This document shows positions 1,050 through 12,490 of a stretch of DNA of 55,620 nt, in pieces. Both the position numbers and the translations under genes were made by a program. The notes under the pieces were generated by a model that worked only from the letters and a program-made list of their open reading frames with translations, had not been told where the DNA came from and did not search any database. Numbering within the stretch: the first letter of the stretch is position 1; each line of letters starts with the position of its first letter. This DNA comes from an uncultured Burkholderiales bacterium (lineage in GTDB: Bacteria > Pseudomonadota > Gammaproteobacteria > Burkholderiales > Burkholderiaceae_C), in assembly GCA_903831655.1 (NCBI GenBank), contig CAIKYO010000126.1:1-55620 (forward strand), given 5' to 3'.

Positions 1050-2147
1050 TTAACGATCTAAAGTTCCCCTGTACAAGGGCTTGATCTGATGGGGGAAAAT
1101 CTCCTCAATCCAGCGTTTGACCCCTTCAGGATCGTCTGCGTGAACGATGTGCCGCTCTGGCATGGATCGCAACCAAGTCAATTGCCGTTTGGCCAATTGC
1201 CTGGTCGCTGCAAGAGAGGTGCTCATGAAGTGCTCAAAGGGTGGCGAATCGATGAGGCTTTGAGTTAACGGATCCCCAACCCTTTGAGACTTCAAAGCCA
1301 AAAGGGCATTAGCATCTTTTAGCAACTCCCAAGCTTGTCTGTACCCCACACACCGCATGCTGGACATTTCAGCCTCAAGTCGATCATCTTCAAAGAGGCT
1401 CAACGCTTCCCATAAAAATCCCTCCTCTACCATTTGCGAATATCGCATGGCGATTCGATCATGCAACCATTTTCGATCCCGCGGTTCAAGGGAGATCACA
1501 CAAAGATCAAGGTCTGTGTCGGACAGTTTGGGTTTGCTTTTCCCGCCACTTTGAAAAGCAGACAACCTCTCGCCCGTCATGCGCCAAACTTCAATGGCAC
1601 GACCAATTCTTTGAGCATCATTGGGAGCCAAGCGTTGCGCAATCAAGGGGTCAACCTCCTGGAGTTGTTGGTGCATTGCAGGCCAACCCTTTTCTTGGGC
1701 CTCGGCCAAAATGGAGCGCCTGAGCTCTGGATCTGTGGTGGGCAGATCATCCAAGCCATTGATCAATGCTTTGTAATAGAGGAAGGTACCTCCCACTAAA
1801 ACTGGAATTTTTTGTCTGGCCCTGATGTCTGAAATAAGCTTCAACGCATCGTTTGCAAATTGAGCCGCACTGTAACTCTGCCAAGGCTCAATGATATTGA
1901 TCAAGTGATGAGGCACCAAAGATAAATCCTCATCTGACGGTTTTGCTGTCCCGATGTCCATGCCCTTGTAGACCAGGGCTGAATCCATGCTGATGATCTC
2001 AATGGGCCAAGTCTTGGCCAATTCCATGGCCAAACTGCTTTTACCCGATGCGGTAGGTCCTACCAGTGCCAGACCATTCCAATGTTTGAAAGAATGGGGT
2101 TGCATCATTGAGGCCACTTGCAAACACGCACGAAGTGACTCACTCAC
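1050..2147 (-). CDS. miaA: tRNA dimethylallyltransferase MiaA
   Basis: Transfers a dimethylallyl group to N6 of adenosine-37 in tRNAs reading UNN codons, the first step of (ms2)i6A synthesis. The P-loop GPTASGKS is at residues 30-37, followed by the DSALVYKGMDIGTAKP segment typical of the family. At 365 residues it is longer than the usual 300-320. The start used here is a GTG (complement of 2145-2147) overlapping the mutL stop by 4 nt, which argues for translational coupling. Two ATGs at residues 14-15 are the alternative starts. The mutL-miaA order is common in proteobacteria. Confidence 0.95.
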   Translation of the reverse strand: MSESLRACLQVASMMQPHSFKHWNGLALVGPTASGKSSLAMELAKTWPIEIISMDSALVYKGMDIGTAKPSDEDLSLVPHHLINIIEPWQSYSAAQFANDALKLISDIRARQKIPVLVGGTFLYYKALINGLDDLPTTDPELRRSILAEAQEKGWPAMHQQLQEVDPLIAQRLAPNDAQRIGRAIEVWRMTGERLSAFQSGGKSKPKLSDTDLDLCVISLEPRDRKWLHDRIAMRYSQMVEEGFLWEALSLFEDDRLEAEMSSMRCVGYRQAWELLKDANALLALKSQRVGDPLTQSLIDSPPFEHFMSTSLAATRQLAKRQLTWLRSMPERHIVHADDPEGVKRWIEEIFPHQIKPLYRGTLDR

Positions 2148-4129
2148 CGGCCTCGCATGAAGAGTGAATCGATGGCCTTCATGCTAAGCTCGTGCCAAGT
2201 CGGACGTCCATGGTTGCATTGATCCGCGCGCTCGGTTTGCTCCATTTGCCTCAGAAGTGCGTTCATCTCTGGCAAGGTTAGCTCACGGTTGGCTCGCACC
2301 GATCCGTGACATGCCATGGTCGAGAGCAATTCATTTCGGGCTTGTTCAACCACGAACTCTCCGTCATGAACGGACAATTCTTTGAGAACACTTCTAACCA
2401 AGGCGACCACATCGCCATCCACCAAAGCACTTGGAACCGCTCTGATGGCCAAGGTTTTACTCGACAAAGCGGACACATCAAAGCCCAGTGCACTCAAGGT
2501 CGTCGCATGCTCTTGAGCCAAAATACACTCAGCCTCGGTTGCTGAGAAAGTTTGAGCAATGAGCAATTGTTGGCTTGATACTCGGTTGTTGTCCCACTGC
2601 GACTTCAACCTTTCGTAGACGATTCGCTCATGAGCAGCGTGGATATCGACCAAGATGAGACCCCGGGCGTTTTGCGCCAAAAGATAAACGCCGTGCAATT
2701 GAGCCAAAGCTCTTCCAAGTGGCCATTCCTGTTCGTGACTGAGTTTTTCTTTCTCACGCCCCTCCACTGGCTCTGGGGGATGCACCCCACTCACCTCAAC
2801 CCCTTTGAGAGCATCAAGCTCTGTGGGTCTGTCGTTGGGGCGGGACCACAGGGCTTGGAGCTGAGAGAGGCTTTGCTCAGGCAATTTCATGCTGGCTTGC
2901 CGCCATTGAGACCCCATCTCCAAGGGGCTTGACTTTGAAGAAGGCTCAACTGGATGCTCAACTTCGTGGTCCAGTTCCTCCTTGAGGTTTGCACTCAAAG
3001 GCGTGATGCGTAGACCTTTGTTTGTTTCAGTGAAAGTAAGTCCTGATGAACCAGAGACCCCACCTCCTGGAATTGAGAAGGCAGCGCCCGTGTTGTCTTG
3101 CCCAACCCGTGGAGCGGCCAAGGCCCGTTGAACACCTCTCAAAATCAGTTGATGCACCTCTTTTGAATCTCGAAATCTAACCTCTATTTTGGTGGGATGC
3201 ACATTGACATCAACCCGCATGGGGTCCATCTCAATGAAGAGCACATAAACAGGTTGACGTTGGCCGTGCAACACATCTTGGTAAGCCACCTTCAAAGCAT
3301 GGTGAATGACTTTGTCTTTGACAAAACGCTCGTTGACATAAGCAAATTGATGGTCCGCACGACTTCTAGAAACATGGGGCAAACCCACTCTTCCTTTGAA
3401 CACCAAACCATTTTCTTGGTAATCGATGGCAACCGATTCGTTGACAAAATCTAAACCCAAAACATCGGCCATGCGGCGATCCATTGCCTCTTGTGGATTG
3501 ACATGCGCTTTCCAAGCGTGGACATTTTTTCCTTCATGCCAAACAGCAAAGCTCACATTGGGTCGAACCAAAGCATGGCGGCGAACCGCTTCAACACAGT
3601 GAGCCAATTCGGTCGCATCAGATTTTAAAAATTTTCGACGAGCTGGCGTGCTGAAAAAAAGTTCCCTCACCTCTACAGTGGTCCCGCGTGCGCGGCCGAC
3701 AACATCTAGTTCGCCCGATCTTGCATGCAAACACATGGCCTGAGATTGTTCCTCTGGCTTGGAGGTCAAAGTCAATTCAGAGATCGATGCAACCGCGGCC
3801 AAAGCCTCTCCTCTAAAACCCATGGAACTGACTTGCTCAAGATCGTGCAAATCTCTGATTTTGCTGGTCGCGTGACGCCTTAGTGCAAGACTCAATTGCT
3901 CCTGGGGTATGCCTATTCCATTGTCCTCAACAGAGATCAACCTGACCCCTCCTGCGGACAATCTAACTGTGATCTCAGTTGCATGGGCATCCAACGCGTT
4001 GTCCACCAACTCCCGCACCACAGAGGCGGGACGCTCTACCACCTCACCCGCTGCGATTTGACTGATGAGTTCATCATCAAGCGCCAGAATTGGCCGCCGA
4101 ACTTGTGCTTGAGAAATGGATTCAGTCAT
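2144..4129 (-). CDS. mutL: DNA mismatch repair protein MutL
   Basis: Mismatch-repair mediator, 661 residues. The N-terminal GHKL ATPase shows ELVDNALDA, DNGIGI and GFRGEALAA, then the transducer domain and a variable linker (about residues 340-460). The C-terminal domain carries DIHAAHERIVYE, fitting the DxHAxxExxxxE metal-binding motif of endonuclease-active MutL, plus ACHGSVRANR and CNHGRPT. This is the pattern of MutL proteins that nick DNA themselves, unlike E. coli MutL. It starts with ATG at 4129 and overlaps miaA. Confidence 0.96.
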   Translation of the reverse strand: MTESISQAQVRRPILALDDELISQIAAGEVVERPASVVRELVDNALDAHATEITVRLSAGGVRLISVEDNGIGIPQEQLSLALRRHATSKIRDLHDLEQVSSMGFRGEALAAVASISELTLTSKPEEQSQAMCLHARSGELDVVGRARGTTVEVRELFFSTPARRKFLKSDATELAHCVEAVRRHALVRPNVSFAVWHEGKNVHAWKAHVNPQEAMDRRMADVLGLDFVNESVAIDYQENGLVFKGRVGLPHVSRSRADHQFAYVNERFVKDKVIHHALKVAYQDVLHGQRQPVYVLFIEMDPMRVDVNVHPTKIEVRFRDSKEVHQLILRGVQRALAAPRVGQDNTGAAFSIPGGGVSGSSGLTFTETNKGLRITPLSANLKEELDHEVEHPVEPSSKSSPLEMGSQWRQASMKLPEQSLSQLQALWSRPNDRPTELDALKGVEVSGVHPPEPVEGREKEKLSHEQEWPLGRALAQLHGVYLLAQNARGLILVDIHAAHERIVYERLKSQWDNNRVSSQQLLIAQTFSATEAECILAQEHATTLSALGFDVSALSSKTLAIRAVPSALVDGDVVALVRSVLKELSVHDGEFVVEQARNELLSTMACHGSVRANRELTLPEMNALLRQMEQTERADQCNHGRPTWHELSMKAIDSLFMRGR

Positions 4130-4253
4130 GAAAGGAAGTCACCAAAGACCCAAAAAGGTTAAATCGAACGCCACGTCATTTTAAAGGGTTATTGCGGGCA
4201 GCCAATTGATCCACCCAATCAGCTCAGACAGAAAAGACAGGGATAATGCAGGC

Positions 4254-4910
4254 ATGGACACCCTCTATCCCTACTTAGATTTGCTCATCCACATTGATCT
4301 AGTTCTCAAAAGCTGGATCACAGAACACGGGGACTTGAGCTATCTTTTTATATTCTTGATCATTTTCGTTGAAACGGGGGTCGTTTTTTTCCCAGTTTTA
4401 CCAGGCGACTCGCTGCTCTTTATCATCGGGACCTTCTGTGGCCTGGGACTCATGTCGCCTGAGATTTCTCTGGCCGTTTGCTTGAGCGCTGCCGTTTTGG
4501 GAGACCAATTGAATTTTTGGATCGGCCAATACCTTGGGCAAAAAATCATTCACGCCAACTCCCCTTGGATCTCCAAGGACAAGCTCTCTCAAACCCAGCT
4601 CTTCTTTGAACGCTTCGGCTCATTGACGCTGGTGATTGCACGCTTCATTCCTTTTGTTAGAACCTTCGCCCCATTTTGCGCCGGACTGGGCTTGATGAAA
4701 CCACTGCAGTTTTCCCTCTTTAATATCTTGGGAGCCGTCCTTTGGGTCTTGGGTGTTGGAAGTTTGGGCTTCTTTTTAGGAGAAGTGCTTTGGATCAAAG
4801 AACACATTCAACTCGTGGTTTGGGCATTGATCTTGATTCCCTCCATCTTGGCCATTGCTTCGGCCTTTCAACGCAACCACGCTCAAGGGTCGAATCAAAT
4901 TCAACCGTGA
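4254..4910 (+). CDS. DedA family membrane protein
   Basis: A 218-residue inner-membrane protein of the DedA/VTT family, whose members are linked to lipid flipping and envelope homeostasis. Visible hallmarks are an acidic residue within VETGVVFFPVLPGD and the segment ARFIPFVRTFAPFCAGLG, with the conserved arginine and prolines of the re-entrant loop. A TTG at 4206 would add a 16-residue polar leader; the ATG at 4254 starts just before the first hydrophobic stretch and is preferred. It is divergent from mutL and probably monocistronic. Confidence 0.9.
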   Translation: MDTLYPYLDLLIHIDLVLKSWITEHGDLSYLFIFLIIFVETGVVFFPVLPGDSLLFIIGTFCGLGLMSPEISLAVCLSAAVLGDQLNFWIGQYLGQKIIHANSPWISKDKLSQTQLFFERFGSLTLVIARFIPFVRTFAPFCAGLGLMKPLQFSLFNILGAVLWVLGVGSLGFFLGEVLWIKEHIQLVVWALILIPSILAIASAFQRNHAQGSNQIQP

Positions 4911-5019: not shown

Positions 5020-6369
5020 ATGAAACGCGACACCACTGCCTTAGATGATCAAAGCAAAGATACCACGACTGTGAATTGGAGTCGTGCTGACAGCTCTAGA
5101 GTTCCCTTTAACGCCTATACCAATCCCGCTCTTCATGCCAAAGAGTTGGCACGGTTTTTTTACGGCTCTCACTGGAACTATGTTGGTCTTTTGAGCGAAA
5201 TTCCCAATTGGGGTGACTTTAAAAAGACTTTCATTGGGGAGCGCGAAGTGATCATGGTCAAAGACATGGTGCGTCCCGCCATGAAAGATCTAGACCATGG
5301 CGTGCGAGTGGTTGAGAACCGATGCGCTCACCGAGGTGTCAGGTTCCTTCAAGAAAGCACTGGCAACAAACGCAGCTTTGTATGCCCCTATCACCAATGG
5401 GCTTACAAATTGAACGGTGATCTAGGCGGACTGCCCTTCAAAGATGGCGTGCAAACCCCTGAGGAAACTCAAGGCGGCATGCCCAATGACTTTGACCTCT
5501 CAGAGCATGGATTGACCCAACTCAAAGTGGAGGTTTTACATGGATTGGTCTTTGCGAGCTTTGACGCATCTGCCCCAAGCTTAAAGGACTACCTTGGCCC
5601 CGAAATTCTTCCCTGGATAGACCGAATATTCAAAGGAAAAACATTGACTCTTTTGGGCTACAACCGCCAGCGCATTCCTGGTAACTGGAAGCTCATGATG
5701 GAGAACATCAAAGACCCCTATCACCCAGGCTTGCTGCACACTTGGTTTGTGACCTTTGGGCTTTGGCGTGCAGATCAAAAAAGCAAAATGATCATGGACG
5801 CCAAAGGACGTCATGCAGTCATGGTATCCACTCGCAATGAGGGAGGAGGAGGGGCTGTGACGCAAGGCGTCACCAGCTACAAACCTGGCATGAAACTGCA
5901 CGATGACCGCTTGCTCGATATCGTGGGCGAACCTTGGTGGACCATCTCAGACCCCTCAGATCCACAAAAGTCCATCACGCCTTCTGTCACCATGATCACT
6001 CTCTTTCCAAGCGTCATCATTCAACAGCAAGTGAACTCTTTGTCGACCCGACAAATCATCCCCAACGGACATGGGTCGTTTGACTTTGTATGGACACACT
6101 TTGGCTTTGAGGATGATTCAGCTGAAATGACAAAACGCAGACTTCGTCAAGCCAATCTCTTTGGACCTGCAGGCTATGTGAGCGCTGACGATGGTGAGGT
6201 CATCGAATTGAGTCAATCTGGTTTTGAACAATGGAACAGCGATGGGCAAAACAGTGGCGAGACCATTTGTGAACTCGGTGGAAGAGAGGTACACGGCACA
6301 CAGCACATGGTGACCGAAACATTGATCAGAGGCATGTACGCCTATTGGAGAGAGGTGATGTCATCATGA
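5020..6369 (+). CDS. Rieske aromatic ring-hydroxylating dioxygenase, large subunit
   Basis: Catalytic alpha subunit (449 residues) of a ring-hydroxylating oxygenase. Rieske [2Fe-2S] ligands are visible as C102, H104, C122 and H125. The mononuclear iron site is D232-x2-H235-x4-H240 in the segment NIKDPYHPGLLHTW. The sequence around the iron site resembles the salicylate 5-hydroxylase / anthranilate dioxygenase branch (NagG/AndAc-like), but this is from memory and the substrate is an inference. It overlaps the small-subunit gene by 4 nt (ATGA). No ferredoxin, reductase or regulator gene lies beside it, so electrons must come from elsewhere. Confidence 0.92.
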   Translation: MKRDTTALDDQSKDTTTVNWSRADSSRVPFNAYTNPALHAKELARFFYGSHWNYVGLLSEIPNWGDFKKTFIGEREVIMVKDMVRPAMKDLDHGVRVVENRCAHRGVRFLQESTGNKRSFVCPYHQWAYKLNGDLGGLPFKDGVQTPEETQGGMPNDFDLSEHGLTQLKVEVLHGLVFASFDASAPSLKDYLGPEILPWIDRIFKGKTLTLLGYNRQRIPGNWKLMMENIKDPYHPGLLHTWFVTFGLWRADQKSKMIMDAKGRHAVMVSTRNEGGGGAVTQGVTSYKPGMKLHDDRLLDIVGEPWWTISDPSDPQKSITPSVTMITLFPSVIIQQQVNSLSTRQIIPNGHGSFDFVWTHFGFEDDSAEMTKRRLRQANLFGPAGYVSADDGEVIELSQSGFEQWNSDGQNSGETICELGGREVHGTQHMVTETLIRGMYAYWREVMSS

Positions 6370-6941
6370 GCCAAGCACAACACCAAAAAGAATCGCTTCT
6401 AAAGATTACCCCTATCAGTGACTTTTCAAAGAAGTTGAACTTGCAACAAGAAATCAATGACATCAATGCTCGTTATGCACAAGCATTGGATCAACAAGAA
6501 CTTGAGGCTTGGCCAGATTTTTTTATTGAACAAGGCCGTTATCAAATTCAAGCGCGTGAAAATGAGGACCGAAAACTCCCCCTCTCACTCATGGATCTCG
6601 AATCCCAAGGGATGATGAAGGACCGTGTATACGGAGTCACACAAACGATTTTTCATGCGCCCTACTACATGCGGCACATCATCGGTCAAGCTCTGGTTTT
6701 GGGCTCAACCACCCCAGATGCTTTGACTCAATCCATCGACATGCCAACTGATCAAGAACTCTGGGTTAGCCACACCCATTACGCCGTGTTTCGAACCAAA
6801 CCAGGTTCAGTCAGTGAAGTCTTCAATGTGGGTCAGTACAAAGATCTATGGCTCTCCACAGATGAGGGGTTGAAGTTGGCTTGGAGACGATGTGTCTATG
6901 ATTCAGAGCTGATTTTGAACTCTCTGATCTACCCCATTTGA
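6366..6941 (+). CDS. aromatic ring-hydroxylating dioxygenase, small subunit
   Basis: Beta subunit (191 residues) of the oxygenase encoded just upstream; it has the SnoaL-like alpha+beta barrel signature near its N-terminus (INARYAQALDQQELEAWPDFF) and assembles with the alpha subunit as an alpha3beta3 hexamer in known systems. The ATG at 6366 overlaps the alpha stop codon; a TTG at 6345 would extend into the alpha gene and is less likely. The pair forms a two-gene operon with nothing else in the same direction nearby. Confidence 0.9.
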   Translation: MSQAQHQKESLLKITPISDFSKKLNLQQEINDINARYAQALDQQELEAWPDFFIEQGRYQIQARENEDRKLPLSLMDLESQGMMKDRVYGVTQTIFHAPYYMRHIIGQALVLGSTTPDALTQSIDMPTDQELWVSHTHYAVFRTKPGSVSEVFNVGQYKDLWLSTDEGLKLAWRRCVYDSELILNSLIYPI

Positions 6942-7021: not shown

Positions 7022-8566
7022 TCACAGAGCTCTGGTTTTGATGGGCGGTGGATACTTTGAAAAATATCTCACCATCGCAGTTTTCACAGCCTTGACCAAG
7101 TCCAATTGAAAGGCCTCCGTGACCAAGAGCGCCTCCTCCTCTGGGTTGCTGATGAAAGCGGTCTCCAAGAGCAAGCTTGGGATATCTGGCGCCTTCAAAA
7201 CAGCAAAGCTCGCTTGCTCAACTTGTCCCTTGTGCAACGCTCCTACGTGGCGTATTTGGCCCAACAACTCAACACCCAACTTCAAGCTGTCTTTGATTTG
7301 AGAGGCTGTGCTCATATCAAGAAGCGTGCGCTGGAGAACCGCGTCTTTGGTTTTGATGTTGATGCCTCCGACCAAATCAGCCTTGTTCTCTTGGTTGGCC
7401 ATCCACTGCGCAGCAGCACTGCTGGCCCCTCCATCGCTCAAAGCAAAGACACTGGCTCCTTTGGCATTGGGTGTGATAAAAGCGTCCGCATGAATACTCA
7501 AGAGCAAATCGGCTTGCACCCTCTGGGCTTTTTCCACACGTTGATGAAGTGGTACAAAATAATCATCATCTCGTGTCAAGAAGGTGCGAACCTCAAACTC
7601 ACCTTTCTTGGTTTTGATCACCGTTTGATCAAGTGCTTTTTTAAGCTTCAAAGCTATTTGAAAGACCACATCCTTTTCTTTAACCCCATCCTTGGCAATT
7701 GCACCAGGATCCTCCCCTCCATGCCCTGGGTCCAAGGCAATGACGATCAATTGCTGATCAAGACCCATAGTGTTCGTTGAATGGGGTTGAGTGGCTTGTG
7801 CATCAACAGGCTCTGGTGACTGAGGCGGGTTGCTTTGTTTTCCACCAATGGGTTGGGCTTGAAGCTGGTTACTCTTTTGGTTTGACTGCGCCAACCAAGC
7901 GCTCAGCACATCCTCGCTTGGTTTTAACGCAAGGGGCTTGGAGGATTCAGTGCTCGCAGGCACAGTGGATTTCTGTGGCGCAGCTGAAACTAAAGATGAC
8001 ACAGAAGGGTTACCCACTGGCACGCCAGGTAAAGATTTTTTATCGTTTGGGCCCTGTGCCAGCCCTACTCCTTTGCGTTCAATCAAAAATGCAAGCAATG
8101 GGTCAACGGCTTGAGTGGGATAGAGGTCAATGACCAACCTGTTTCCATAATGGGCTTGATTGAGCCTTTCGTTGGCGATGGGCGTTAAGTTAAAGATTTG
8201 AGGCAAAACCATTTGCCTTAAATCAAACACCAAGCGCACGACACCAGGTGAAAACTGCCCCACTCGAACGCCTGAAATGTAGGGGTCATCGGCTTGAATT
8301 TGCCCCACCAATTCGCGAAGAGCGGGATTTAAATCCACACCCACAATGTCCAAGGCCATTCTGGGGGGATTGTCGATCAAAAGGGGTTGACTTTGTAGAG
8401 CAGTGTCAGACTCTATGGTGACACGTGTGTACTCCTTGGCAGGCCAAACTCTGACAGCCAAAATGGTGGCCCCTTGCGCCAAATCACTCACGCCCAAGGA
8501 CAAAGCCAAAAGCCCAGCTTGTTGCAACAAGGCTCTTCGGTCCAGTTTGTGCCCCACAGCGCTCAT
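7022..8566 (-). CDS. amiC: N-acetylmuramoyl-L-alanine amidase, AmiC type
   Basis: Periplasmic zinc amidase (514 residues) that splits septal peptidoglycan during cell separation. The N-terminus has a twin-arginine-like signal (R10-R11 followed by a hydrophobic stretch and AQG), as in E. coli AmiC. An AMIN domain spans about residues 34-150, then a Pro/Gln/Ser-rich linker to about 270. The Amidase_3 domain shows ALDPGHGGEDPG (zinc ligand His), SIHADA and the catalytic Glu region LLETAFISN. It starts 1 bp after the tsaE stop, so the two are surely co-transcribed. Confidence 0.94.
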   Translation of the reverse strand: MSAVGHKLDRRALLQQAGLLALSLGVSDLAQGATILAVRVWPAKEYTRVTIESDTALQSQPLLIDNPPRMALDIVGVDLNPALRELVGQIQADDPYISGVRVGQFSPGVVRLVFDLRQMVLPQIFNLTPIANERLNQAHYGNRLVIDLYPTQAVDPLLAFLIERKGVGLAQGPNDKKSLPGVPVGNPSVSSLVSAAPQKSTVPASTESSKPLALKPSEDVLSAWLAQSNQKSNQLQAQPIGGKQSNPPQSPEPVDAQATQPHSTNTMGLDQQLIVIALDPGHGGEDPGAIAKDGVKEKDVVFQIALKLKKALDQTVIKTKKGEFEVRTFLTRDDDYFVPLHQRVEKAQRVQADLLLSIHADAFITPNAKGASVFALSDGGASSAAAQWMANQENKADLVGGINIKTKDAVLQRTLLDMSTASQIKDSLKLGVELLGQIRHVGALHKGQVEQASFAVLKAPDIPSLLLETAFISNPEEEALLVTEAFQLDLVKAVKTAMVRYFSKYPPPIKTRAL

Positions 8567-8567
8567 C

Positions 8568-9056
8568 CTACGCCCCGACCTCAGTGAGTCCCGGAAAAGA
8601 GAATCGACTGTTGAAGCGCAAAGTCACCTCCCTTGAGCCCTCTGAGCTCACTTGGATGCGAATCTCCAAATCTGCCACAGGCAAAAGTGCCTCAACCCTC
8701 TCTGGCCACTCGTAGAGCTTCAAGCCTGGTGCCACAAATACATCCCTGAACCCGGCCTCCTCCCACTGGGAGGGGTCTGTGAAACGGTAAAAATCCATGT
8801 GAGAAATGACCCATGCATGCCCCTCGCGCTCGAGCTGATACGATTCAAGCAAGGCGTAGGTAGGGCTCTTGATGGTGCCCTTGACCCCCAAGGCCCTCAA
8901 AAGGGCTCGGACCAATGTGGTCTTCCCAGCCCCCAAGTCGCCCAACAAAGAAACACAAGCGTCGCTCAAACCTGGTTCAAGAGCAAGTTTTTGGGCAAAA
9001 TCCAGCGTAGCGTCCTCGTTGGGCCAAAATAGCTTTAATTCGTGAACTTCGCTCAT
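8568..9056 (-). CDS. tsaE: tRNA threonylcarbamoyladenosine biosynthesis ATPase TsaE
   Basis: Small P-loop ATPase (162 residues) that drives the TsaBDE complex in making t6A at position 37 of ANN-decoding tRNAs. Walker A is GDLGAGKTTLVRALL and the family segment SPTYALLESY follows. The ATG at 9056 is preferred over a TTG at 9062. It lies upstream of amiC, a pairing widespread in proteobacteria, and diverges from queG with almost no intergenic space. Confidence 0.95.
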   Translation of the reverse strand: MSEVHELKLFWPNEDATLDFAQKLALEPGLSDACVSLLGDLGAGKTTLVRALLRALGVKGTIKSPTYALLESYQLEREGHAWVISHMDFYRFTDPSQWEEAGFRDVFVAPGLKLYEWPERVEALLPVADLEIRIQVSSEGSREVTLRFNSRFSFPGLTEVGA

Positions 9057-9074
9057 TGTCAAGGATCATCCGTT

Positions 9075-10178
9075 TTGTTTAATCAAACTGCATTCATAGA
9101 AAAAATCAGGACAGTTGGATTTTCGCTTGGATTTTCTCAAATCGGCATCACCTCTGCTGATATTTCTCATGCTGAGCCTGCTTTTTTAGCATGGTTAGAC
9201 AAGGGCTTTCATGGCGAGATGCAGTACATGAGTCAACACGGAACCAAACGAACTCGACCAGCTGAGTTGGTACCTGGCACAGTGAGCATTGTGAGCGCCA
9301 GCATGAACTACTTGCCCAGCAATGGCGAGAGTTGGATCTCAAAGGAATGGCAAGCCCTCGAGCGTGCCGATCAAGGAGTCATCAGTGTTTACGCCAGAGG
9401 ACGTGACTATCACAAAGTGTTGCGCCAAAGGCTTCAAAAACTGGCCACTTTCATGGCGCAAGAGCTCGATCCATTGGGCTACCGCGTGTTCACCGACTCG
9501 GCTCCTGTGATGGAGGTGGAACTGGCCAAACAAGCTGGGCTTGGATGGAGGGGCAAAAACACGCTCTTGCTGAATCGCGAGGGGGGGTCGATGTTTTTTT
9601 TAGGAGAAATCTACCTAAGCGTTGATTTGAGCGCCCACGCCCCTACCCTCCCCACCGAATCGCACTGCGGGAGTTGCACCGCTTGCGTAGACGTGTGCCC
9701 AACCCAGGCCATTGTCGAGCCCTACTTGCTGGATGCGAGACGCTGCATTTCATACCTAACCATCGAACATCCTGGCTCCATCGATGTCGCTCTCAGGCCT
9801 TTGATGGGCAATCGAATCTATGGCTGTGATGATTGTCAGCTGATTTGCCCTTGGAATAAATTTGCCAAGCTCACCACCTTGAGCGACTTTGATGCGAAGG
9901 CTCATTTGACCCACCAGTCGCTCCTTAGCTACTGGTCTTGGAGTGAAGAGGAGTTTCTCAATCACACCCAAGGCTCACCCATTCGAAGAATTGGTTATGA
10001 GAGATGGCTCAGAAATCTCTGCATTGCATTGGGCAATGCGTTGCGTCAATCCCATTTGAGCGCAAACATTCACCAAGACATTCGAGCCGCTTTGAGTGAG
10101 CGCTTGACTTACCCAAGCGCGTTGGTCCAAGAACATTTGAACTGGGCTTTGCAACAACACACTTCATCATTGCCATGA
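9075..10178 (+). CDS. queG: epoxyqueuosine reductase QueG
   Basis: Cobalamin- and iron-sulfur-dependent enzyme that reduces epoxyqueuosine to queuosine at tRNA position 34. An N-terminal DUF1730 region is followed by two ferredoxin-like [4Fe-4S] motifs, CGSCTACVDVCPTQA and a later CDDCQLICPW. The start is uncertain. A GTG at 9042 would overlap the divergent tsaE and has no ribosome-binding site. The TTG at 9075 has AAGGA 9 nt upstream and gives the usual N-terminal length (367 residues), so it is preferred. The stop overlaps the next gene's ATG by 4 nt. Confidence 0.95.
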   Translation: MFNQTAFIEKIRTVGFSLGFSQIGITSADISHAEPAFLAWLDKGFHGEMQYMSQHGTKRTRPAELVPGTVSIVSASMNYLPSNGESWISKEWQALERADQGVISVYARGRDYHKVLRQRLQKLATFMAQELDPLGYRVFTDSAPVMEVELAKQAGLGWRGKNTLLLNREGGSMFFLGEIYLSVDLSAHAPTLPTESHCGSCTACVDVCPTQAIVEPYLLDARRCISYLTIEHPGSIDVALRPLMGNRIYGCDDCQLICPWNKFAKLTTLSDFDAKAHLTHQSLLSYWSWSEEEFLNHTQGSPIRRIGYERWLRNLCIALGNALRQSHLSANIHQDIRAALSERLTYPSALVQEHLNWALQQHTSSLP

Positions 10179-11248
10179 AGCGGTTCACCCACCAACTCAA
10201 GAGGAGGGGTTCGAGTGAGGTGTTGCAGTGGAGCAGCACCGAGGAGGAGACCTTATTGGAAAGCGCTCGCACACAAGGTATCGATTTACCAAGCAGTTGC
10301 GAAAACGGCACTTGTCGCACTTGCTTGATGAAGTCAATTGCCCCCCATCCTCTGGTGAGCTACAAGACCGATTGGCCTGGGGTGAGCCTTGAGGAGAGAC
10401 AAGCTGGTTATTTGTTGCCATGTGCAGCCCATGCCCATGAATCCATCACCTTTGAGGCAATCCCTTTGCTGCCAATGCAATATCAAAAGGCAATTTGCGT
10501 GGTCTTTGAAAACGATCAATTGTTGGTGCTGAGTAAACCCAGTGGTTTGTTATCTGTACCCGGTAAAGGTCCTGAGAAACAGGATTCTTTGACCACCCGG
10601 GTTCAAGCATTGAGAGGCCCAAATTTGCTGAATGTGCATCGTTTGGACCAATCCACATCAGGCCTCATTGTCATGGCCAAAGGCCAGGCTCATCACAGAA
10701 CCCTGTCCATGTCGTTTGCCAGTCAATCCGTTCATAAACGCTACTTGGCCGTGGTCAGTGGTCACATTGAGGCATCCAAAGATTGGCAAACAATTGATCT
10801 GCCCATTCACGCGCATTGGCCTGATCGACCTAAAAGACGTGTGCACGAAGATGGAAAACCCAGTCAAACTCGCTACAGAGCTTGGGCTAACAACGAGCAG
10901 AGCTCTTTGTTAGAAATTGAACCCTTGAGCGGCAGGACCCATCAAATCAGAGTTCACTTGCAAGCCATTGGACACCCCATCTGGGGAGATCAGCTGTATG
11001 CCCCACAAAATGTGGCCAACGCCAGCCCACGACTTTTGCTGCACGCTTGGAGCCTCACGCTCAAGGACCCCTTGAGCGGTGAAACACTCCACTTTCAGAC
11101 CCCCGCGCCCCTCTCAATCGGTATCCCCTCGACCAAAAGCCAAAATGCAGCTCACGATGATCCACCGCCCAAAGCGGTGCTAGAGCACATTCTTCATGCC
11201 TTGTGTTGGGATGAGATCATCCGTTTTTCCGATATTGGCAAGCCATGA
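10175..11248 (+). CDS. rluA: ferredoxin-RluA pseudouridine synthase fusion
   Basis: A 357-residue two-domain protein. Residues 1-95 look like a plant-type [2Fe-2S] ferredoxin: Cys42-x4-Cys47-x2-Cys50-x32-Cys83, with the core CENGTCRTC. Residues 103-320 are an RluA-type pseudouridine synthase without an S4 domain: KPSGLLSVPG, the catalytic HRLDQSTSG with Asp158, and GRTHQIRVH. The segments LLSVPG and the DLP-W-P-RP motif match true RluA, which in E. coli modifies 23S rRNA U746 and tRNA U32. A short C-terminal tail of about 35 residues has no recognised domain. The gene overlaps queG by 4 nt (ATGA). The fusion reads through one continuous frame. Confidence 0.9.
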   Translation: MKRFTHQLKRRGSSEVLQWSSTEEETLLESARTQGIDLPSSCENGTCRTCLMKSIAPHPLVSYKTDWPGVSLEERQAGYLLPCAAHAHESITFEAIPLLPMQYQKAICVVFENDQLLVLSKPSGLLSVPGKGPEKQDSLTTRVQALRGPNLLNVHRLDQSTSGLIVMAKGQAHHRTLSMSFASQSVHKRYLAVVSGHIEASKDWQTIDLPIHAHWPDRPKRRVHEDGKPSQTRYRAWANNEQSSLLEIEPLSGRTHQIRVHLQAIGHPIWGDQLYAPQNVANASPRLLLHAWSLTLKDPLSGETLHFQTPAPLSIGIPSTKSQNAAHDDPPPKAVLEHILHALCWDEIIRFSDIGKP

Positions 11249-11308: not shown

Positions 11309-12490
11309 ATGAATGAAGTCGTCATCACCAGTGCCGTTCGAACGGCCATCGGCACCTTTGGTGGCCGCTTAAAGGACACTCCCGTGACAGAGATGGCAAC
11401 CACCGTTGTTCGCCACGCCATAGAGCGCTCCAAGATCGAGCCCAAGGACGTCGAACAACTGGTCATGGGACATGTGGTGAGCTCTCAACCCAGTGATTTG
11501 TACCTCTCACGCGTGAGTGCCATTAACGCACGTTGCTCTCCCAGTGTCACAGCTTTCAACGTCAATCGCTTGTGCGGCTCAGGTCTTCAGGCCTTGGTCT
11601 GTGCCGCTCAATCCATTCAACTCGGAGACACCCATGTGGCGGTATCTGCGGGAGCAGAGAACATGAGCAAAGGACCTTTCATCAGCAACTCCAATCGCTT
11701 TGGTCAACGCATGGGGGACTCCACTTTGGTTGACATGATGGTGGGCGCTTTGCACGATCCCTTTGAGAGAATACACATGGGTGTGACCGCAGAAAACGTG
11801 GCTCAGAAATGGGGGATCACGCGAGACATGCAAGATGCCCTCGCACTTGAGAGTCACCACAGAGCACAAAAAGCAATTGAGAACGGCTACTTCAAGGACC
11901 AAATCGTCCCCATGGAACTCAAGTCTCGCAAAGGCATTGAGGCTTGGCAAACCGATGAGCACGTGAGACTGAATGCGACGAGCGAGGACTTCAGCAAACT
12001 CAAACCCGTCTTCCTTAAAGACAATGGAACCGTCACAGCGGGAAACGCCTCAGGCATCAACGACGCAGCTGCAGCTTTGGTTCTGATGAATGCACAAACA
12101 GCGCAGGCTCGTGGCTTAAAACCCATGGCACGACTGGTGAGCTATGCGCATGCTGGGGTGGAGCCCAAATACATGGGCATCGGCCCCGTGCCCGCTAGCC
12201 TTGCAGCCCTTAAAAAGGCTGGACTGAGTGTGAGTGACTTGGATGTGATTGAAGCCAATGAAGCATTTGCGGCTCAAGCCTGCGCGGTGATCAAAGACCT
12301 TGGTCTAGACCCGGCAAAAGTCAATCCCAACGGTTCGGGCATTTCGCTTGGGCACCCCATTGGCGCAACCGGTGCGCTGATCACTGTCAAAGCCCTCCAC
12401 GAATTGCACCGCATCCAAGGGCGATACGCCTTGGTTACGATGTGTATCGGAGGGGGACAAGGGATAGCTGCAATTTTTGAAAGACTCTAA
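11309..12490 (+). CDS. acetyl-CoA C-acetyltransferase (thiolase)
   Basis: Biosynthetic/degradative thiolase of 393 residues, the standard family length. The nucleophile Cys89 lies in [11 protein letters not shown]. His349 is in GHPIGATG and Cys379 in MCIGGGQG, completing the active site. It condenses two acetyl-CoA or cleaves 3-ketoacyl-CoA; a role in polyhydroxybutyrate synthesis (PhaA/BktB-like) is possible but no pha genes adjoin it. AAAGGA lies 7 nt before the ATG. It appears to stand alone. Confidence 0.94.

Follow-up and report, generated by a model that had tools for sequence, protein, structure and literature searches.

In most bacteria, it is poorly settled which physiological donors supply QueG and MiaB with electrons. 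The pseudouridine synthase RluA targets tRNA position 32 and 23S rRNA position 746, and its catalytic aspartate has been shown in Pseudomonas (PMC7822408). For QueG, PMC4646009 places both [4Fe-4S] clusters near the protein surface, so that a partner protein could pass electrons to them, and PMC7585037 describes a class III relative, NpRdhA, that was driven by spinach ferredoxin and flavodoxin reductase. A preliminary description of the DNA analysed here pointed to a gene that joins a ferredoxin domain to RluA beside queG, and knew of no characterised example. The literature covered by our own search, which lay mostly outside subscription journals, likewise yielded no report of RluA or any other pseudouridine synthase fused to a ferredoxin, 2Fe-2S, Fer2 or other redox domain, PMC7641849 and PMC3063783 included.

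A conserved ferredoxin–RluA fusion protein

The window (the whole 55,620-nucleotide stretch, from an uncultured Burkholderiales bacterium) encodes an N-terminal [2Fe-2S] ferredoxin domain and a complete RluA-type pseudouridine synthase in one ATG-initiated frame without any interruption (Table 1). The frame, the residues and the queG overlap that the preliminary description had read from the DNA all held up: both domains score above their Pfam gathering thresholds (39.8 bits against 21 for Fer2 and 103.7 against 26.8 for PseudoU_synth_2), the ferredoxin ligands are Cys42-x4-Cys47-x2-Cys50-x32-Cys83, the HRLD motif of the RluA half contains Asp158, and the upstream neighbour is identified as queG by TIGR00276. 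AlphaFold2 predicts both domains with confidence (mean pLDDT 84.2, pTM 0.73), with pLDDT under 50 for residues 98–105, 314–327 and 341–357. Foldseek matched the fused protein to E. coli RluA (PDB 2i82; TM 0.89–0.90 on the target, 42% identity) and to plant-type ferredoxins (TM about 0.8).

Table 1. Genes and protein segments around the fused gene, with positions in the window.
Feature	Position	Strand	Details
miaA	1050..2147	-	Pfam IPPT
mutL	2144..4129	-	part of the queG–miaA block
dedA-like gene (VTT domain)	4206..4910	+	part of the queG–miaA block
ring-hydroxylating dioxygenase, alpha and beta subunits	5020..6941	+	Pfam; within the block, between dedA and amiC
amiC-type amidase	7022..8566	-	Pfam Amidase_3 and AMIN
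tsaE	8568..9062	-	Pfam TsaE
queG	9042..10178	+	TIGR00276, 444.6 bits (cut-off 200); true start may lie further in
ATGA overlap, queG stop and fusion start	10175..10178	+	4 nt
fused gene, [2Fe-2S] ferredoxin domain and RluA pseudouridine synthase	10175..11248	+	357 aa
Fer2 domain, residues 23–87	10241..10435	+	Cys42, 47, 50 and 83; signature NGTCR..C ... WPG.S; Pfam, alignments
interdomain linker, residues 98–105	10466..10489	+	low pLDDT (see text)
PseudoU_synth_2 (RluA) domain, residues 116–264	10520..10966	+	catalytic Asp158; Pfam; fold match 2i82
C-terminal tail of the fused protein, 45 residues	11111..11245	+	alignment, predicted structure
thiolase	11309..12490	+	Pfam; also downstream of rluA in many relatives

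Both domains occur in one stop-free frame in 13 of 84 same-genus genomes (G000, G168, G182, G183, G184, G185, G187, G188, G189, G195, G201, G208 and G229), and each of the 13 is matched by both the Fer2 and the PseudoU_synth_2 model of Pfam. None of them departs from the four cysteines, from NGTCR and WPG or, in the RluA half, from HRLD (H155–D158). Among the outcomes that the preliminary description had named as counting against it were close homologues lacking the cysteines and a fusion absent from all relatives; these relatives instead carry the fusion, cysteines included. The cysteines are also invariant across the 18 fused and separate ferredoxin sequences of one alignment (A1), and CxxGxCxxC and WPG are present in all 38 ferredoxins from hand-picked loci of the family. 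By a simple Nei–Gojobori count on five pairs, dN/dS was 0.125–0.186 for the ferredoxin half and 0.080–0.183 for the RluA half, values that are rough because synonymous distances reach 1.5 (window/L041 pair). Purifying selection acts on both halves, and the fused protein is real and conserved rather than an artefact; the ferredoxin half probably binds a cluster.

In its genome, the fused gene is one of six with a PseudoU_synth_2 domain, and at 1e-20 no other frame there matches its type of ferredoxin; a weaker hit (2.1e-17) falls in a different, longer frame. We considered whether free RluA might arise from an internal ATG start and rejected this: Met102 is found only in the window, the other 12 fused proteins having no methionine at that column. 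Group means of net ferredoxin charge were uninformative about any shift upon fusion (-3.4 for the fused form with queG, n=11; -1 for the fused form behind miaA, n=2; -6 for separate ferredoxins, n=23, some from outside the genus; -2.4 for other family loci, n=38). The C-terminal tail contains a cysteine and is predicted to form one helix; of the other 12 fused proteins, only that of L041 has a tail this long. In L042, L044 and L046 the fused frame seems to begin at a TTG within the 3′ end of queG, with an overlap longer than the window's 4 nt.

Fused, separate and missing ferredoxins

In a further 31 of the 84 genus genomes the ferredoxin has a gene of its own. This gene immediately precedes rluA, on the same strand, in 26 of them, the two matches being less than about 90 bases apart: seven of these genomes have both genes in one frame, divided by a single TAA, while in L062 and L066–L068 they are two genes in different frames. 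In the remaining five, ferredoxin and rluA are separated by an oppositely oriented MFS gene (L158–L161, plus G202, for which the order was inferred over two contigs, L168 and L169). When ferredoxin positions were set against rluA positions by hand, the two were thus linked in 44 of 44 matching genomes (13 fused, 26 directly before, 5 with the MFS gene between). Fused genes, one-frame pairs with one TAA and different-frame pairs exist as intermediate forms within the genus.

The other 40 genus genomes have no ferredoxin match at 1e-20, which implies that the ferredoxin can be lost; 13 of these 40 are of good quality, the other 27 falling short of 90% completeness or exceeding 5% contamination. 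In L165, L170, L242 and L244, miaA is followed directly by rluA with no ferredoxin. The ferredoxin is dispensable beside miaA, queG and rluA.

Outside the genus, 191 of 299 family genomes match the ferredoxin at 1e-16 and 171 at 1e-24 or better (hand count). Among 40 loci hand-picked from the better family hits, rluA adjoins the ferredoxin in two, both of genus g87, and in one more (L217) the adjoining gene is RluA-type at 25% identity; none of the 40 has queG, miaA or mutL within about 3.5 kb, and we found no fixed neighbour among them. In two other genera the order is ferredoxin, MFS gene, rluA (L166, L167). A class-level search at 1e-16 matched 42 of 369 genomes, of which only the two from the same family go far below 1e-20; five of the other 40 were checked, and all are Fer2–FAD–NAD reductases. 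Taken together, the class and family matches suggest that this type of ferredoxin is family-specific and mostly not beside rluA, lying before it in the genus and in g87.

The fusion itself was found nowhere outside the genus: not in 240 family genomes (119 with RluA matches at 1e-75), nor in 150 family genomes or 303 class genomes, these samples overlapping with one another. In the 240-genome search, only G000, G270 and G080 (the last a member of the genus) spanned both domains, with one stop between them in G270 and G080; several other stop-free hits reached only model positions 75–85, past the three-cysteine loop. A scan of a contig collection gave four loci, each with the RluA half only.

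Several features of these loci recurred. The opposite-strand MFS gene between ferredoxin and rluA was seen in the genus and in two other genera (L031, L158–L161, L166–L169). In L008, L055, L058, L062, L067, L069, L245 and L246 of the genus, and in L036, L073, L074, L178 and L179 outside it, the separate ferredoxin is preceded by an RsuA-type pseudouridine synthase gene and is thus flanked by two pseudouridine synthase genes. One genome, G200, has two ferredoxin–rluA pairs (contigs C91 and C216); with a contamination estimate of 6%, it may be a mixed bin.

Gene order and the number of fusions

The gene order around the ferredoxin falls into three contexts. In context A, found in several lineages, the order is queG< tsaE> amiC> dedA< mutL> miaA> (fer>) (mfs<) rluA> thiolase>, where < and > mark opposite strands. 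Nine context A loci have queG in view (L158, L159, L160, L162, L164, L165, L169, L170 and L242; the L169 contig is without rluA, and the thiolase is not in view in L169 and L170). With the block in this orientation, miaA directly precedes the ferredoxin or rluA, and in all eight context A loci that keep the ferredoxin (L158–L164 and L169) it is miaA that precedes. Context B, that of the window's clade, is the same block inverted, so that queG occupies the place of miaA: miaA< mutL< dedA> dioxygenase> amiC< tsaE< queG> fer-rluA> thiolase>. Here queG lies directly upstream of the fusion in 11 genomes (the window's and ten others). In seven of the 11 the block could be followed as far as miaA at its other end; in the remaining four, the contig or the fetched stretch stopped short of it. 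In context C, neither gene precedes the separate ferredoxin, as seen up to 1.5 kb upstream of it or to the end of the locus in each of the 13 fetched genomes that have directly adjacent pairs (L164 excepted); an RsuA-type gene is upstream in several of these loci and in g87. None of the fetched loci with a separate ferredoxin has queG directly before it, and of 28 loci belonging to other genera (L009–L036), not one shows miaA within 1.5 kb upstream of rluA.

E. coli K-12 has the order queG< nnr> tsaE> amiB> mutL> miaA> hfq>, the internal order of which matches that of the genus block, while saying nothing on its own about orientation towards rluA. Since E. coli carries this cluster without a ferredoxin, the queG–miaA cluster is old. 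Context A is present in several lineages and context B in one clade; context A is therefore taken to be the older, and the inversion probably ran from A to B. The adjacency of queG to the fusion is secondary, produced by inversion of the queG–tsaE–amiC–dedA–mutL–miaA block. The preliminary description had presented the fusion as coupled to queG and had proposed tabulating how often the two sit together: they do in 11 of the 13 fused genomes, while the other two, G168 and G185, have miaA instead, and the fetched loci with a separate ferredoxin do not show the coupling either.

These two genomes form a second fusion group (L162, L163), arranged as in context A with miaA before the fusion. In the ferredoxin tree, the 11 queG-adjacent fusions form one group (97/97) and the G168 and G185 sequences (L050, L053) fall outside it. 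Neither single-gene tree rejects one clade of all fusions (p-AU 0.43 for the ferredoxin, 0.21 for RluA), and the RluA tree splits the queG-adjacent group yet does not reject its grouping (p-AU 0.41). The concatenation of ferredoxin, RluA and thiolase does reject a single fusion clade (p-AU 0.011), and two origins of the fusion within the genus are thus likely. The concatenated tree used 35 of 53 rows, 12 of them fused; rows were limited to those with rluA and a thiolase of more than 200 aa, for which reason the fused L048 is absent. The long-branched L165 was dropped from the concatenation and from the RluA topology tests.

Function of the fused protein

We favour, with moderate confidence, a bifunctional protein in which each half keeps its own job. 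A stop codon would have been lost between a small plant-type [2Fe-2S] ferredoxin gene and the adjoining rluA, giving a single protein whose RluA half, by homology with E. coli, would make pseudouridine at tRNA U32 and 23S U746. Its ferredoxin half, like the stand-alone ferredoxin of relatives, would receive electrons one at a time from a ferredoxin reductase and hand them to an acceptor with no special tie to this locus, the two halves would work independently, and the tether would chiefly fix equal expression of the two neighbours. Consistent with this are the retention of both domains, Asp158 and the four cysteines in 13 of 13 proteins with low dN/dS in both halves, the coexistence in one genus of one-TAA pairs, different-frame pairs and fusions, and a ferredoxin that is mostly away from rluA outside the genus and dispensable in 40 of 84 genomes within it. 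Less comfortably, two fusions together with the 44 of 44 linkage would then be a coincidence aided only by adjacency, and where the queG–miaA cluster precedes the ferredoxin, the immediate neighbour is always miaA (8 of 8 loci) or queG (11 genomes), both coding for anticodon-loop enzymes.

That last pattern is what gives some appeal to the idea of a tRNA-docked electron donor, in which the RluA half sits on the anticodon arm while the ferredoxin feeds QueG (epoxyQ34), MiaB (ms2i6A37) or both. In contexts A and B alike, the ferredoxin has an anticodon-loop enzyme gene before it and rluA after it, whether this is queG abutting the fusion or miaA in the loci of the other block orientation; the surface-near clusters of QueG, the NpRdhA precedent and the two fusions favoured by the concatenated tree fit as well. 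We nevertheless regard such a donor as unlikely. A single inversion explains the position of queG, the old cluster exists in E. coli K-12 without the ferredoxin, all 13 context C genomes lack either gene before their separate ferredoxin, and the ferredoxin has been lost from genomes that keep queG. By hand count, queG is present in 34 of the 40 genus genomes without a ferredoxin match (12 of 13 among those of good quality) and in 42 of the 44 with one, so QueG does not need this ferredoxin, and the two genes are not present or absent together as expected of a dedicated pair. Of the preliminary suggestion that the fused ferredoxin could supply QueG, the fusion, the cysteines and the intact RluA half therefore stand, while the link to QueG is weakened by the inversion, the miaA-adjacent fusions and the queG-bearing genomes that are ferredoxin-free. 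The more elaborate form, with RluA as an RNA dock for a ferredoxin that serves MiaB at A37 and QueG at Q34, positions 32, 34 and 37 being coupled and the fusion selected twice, seems to us rather improbable. MiaE, the diiron hydroxylase of position 37, was tried as an acceptor and rejected: none of 299 family genomes gave a hit over the cut-off and one gave a weak hit, in a search whose 14 control genomes gave no match either, so that it had no positive control.

A redox or iron switch, by which loss or oxidation of the cluster would alter the activity or RNA binding of RluA and so tune pseudouridine to oxygen or iron, would explain why the ligands are kept under purifying selection in all 13 fused proteins; but conservation of the ferredoxin extends to its separate, untethered forms, and the linker is predicted with low confidence in a model whose output (pLDDT and secondary structure) does not show the halves in contact. 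We consider such a switch, a form of which the preliminary description had raised as redox or oxygen sensing, improbable, the observations neither supporting nor refuting the sensing idea as such. Still harder to credit is mere read-through without consequence, with the ferredoxin half a decaying passenger: the want of a match in 40 of 84 genus genomes would suit a dispensable domain, but the invariant cysteines, NGTCR and WPG, the dN/dS of that half and its intact predicted fold do not suit decay. Least probable in our estimation is a role for the ferredoxin as partner of the ring-hydroxylating dioxygenase, whose genes lie about 3 kb away. The window's dioxygenase has no directly adjoining gene for a ferredoxin, reductase or other electron-transfer protein, its alpha gene is present at 76% identity or more in 11 of 11 genomes with the queG-adjacent fusion, and it lies in the same block as the fusion wherever the stretches permit; against this, G159, G161 and G169 carry the dioxygenase at 74% identity without a ferredoxin match, and no match to this dioxygenase turned up at 1e-100 in 27 of the 31 genomes whose ferredoxin is a separate gene. 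Across the genus, the alpha gene is found at 74–100% identity in 14 of 84 genomes. Since none of QueG, MiaE and the dioxygenase emerges as a dedicated acceptor, we prefer two independent activities. If the tether is functional after all, the protein offers a naturally occurring construct with which to find out what reductant the tRNA-modifying iron-sulfur enzymes use; if it is not, the locus is a worked example of a suggestive neighbour, queG, arising by inversion, and shows that fused and unfused forms need comparing before function is read off a fusion.

Among known proteins, the RluA half is closest to E. coli RluA (tRNA Psi32 and 23S Psi746), whose fold and catalytic motif it shares and whose dual-specificity model, NF007543, is the best equivalog hit of the fused protein; unlike E. 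coli RluA, the fused protein adds the N-terminal ferredoxin domain. It has the PseudoU_synth_2 domain and the catalytic aspartate in HRLD by which we recognised an RluA, and scores below the cut-offs of NF007543 (174.2 against 286 bits) and of the RluA subfamily model TIGR00005 (191.3 against 192.7 bits); the unfused RluA of L008 also falls below both (165 and 168.4 bits, respectively), so these models may be narrow for this family. With the plant-type [2Fe-2S] ferredoxins (PF00111, TIGR02008), the other half shares the Fer2 domain and fold and the order of cysteine ligands (C-x4-C-x2-C...C), but this type makes up a subfamily of its own with the WPG signature, joined to an RNA enzyme, and it misses the TIGR02008 (fdx_plant) cut-off of 81.15 bits both when fused (27.1) and as the stand-alone L008 protein (53.7). 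That stand-alone form also weakly matches YfaE, the maintenance ferredoxin of class I ribonucleotide reductase and likewise a small, stand-alone [2Fe-2S] protein, at 37.6 bits against the NF007985 cut-off of 75. The Fer2–FAD–NAD ferredoxin reductases have the Fer2 domain in common with the fused protein, but in the latter that domain comes without a flavin or NAD domain and is joined to a pseudouridine synthase.
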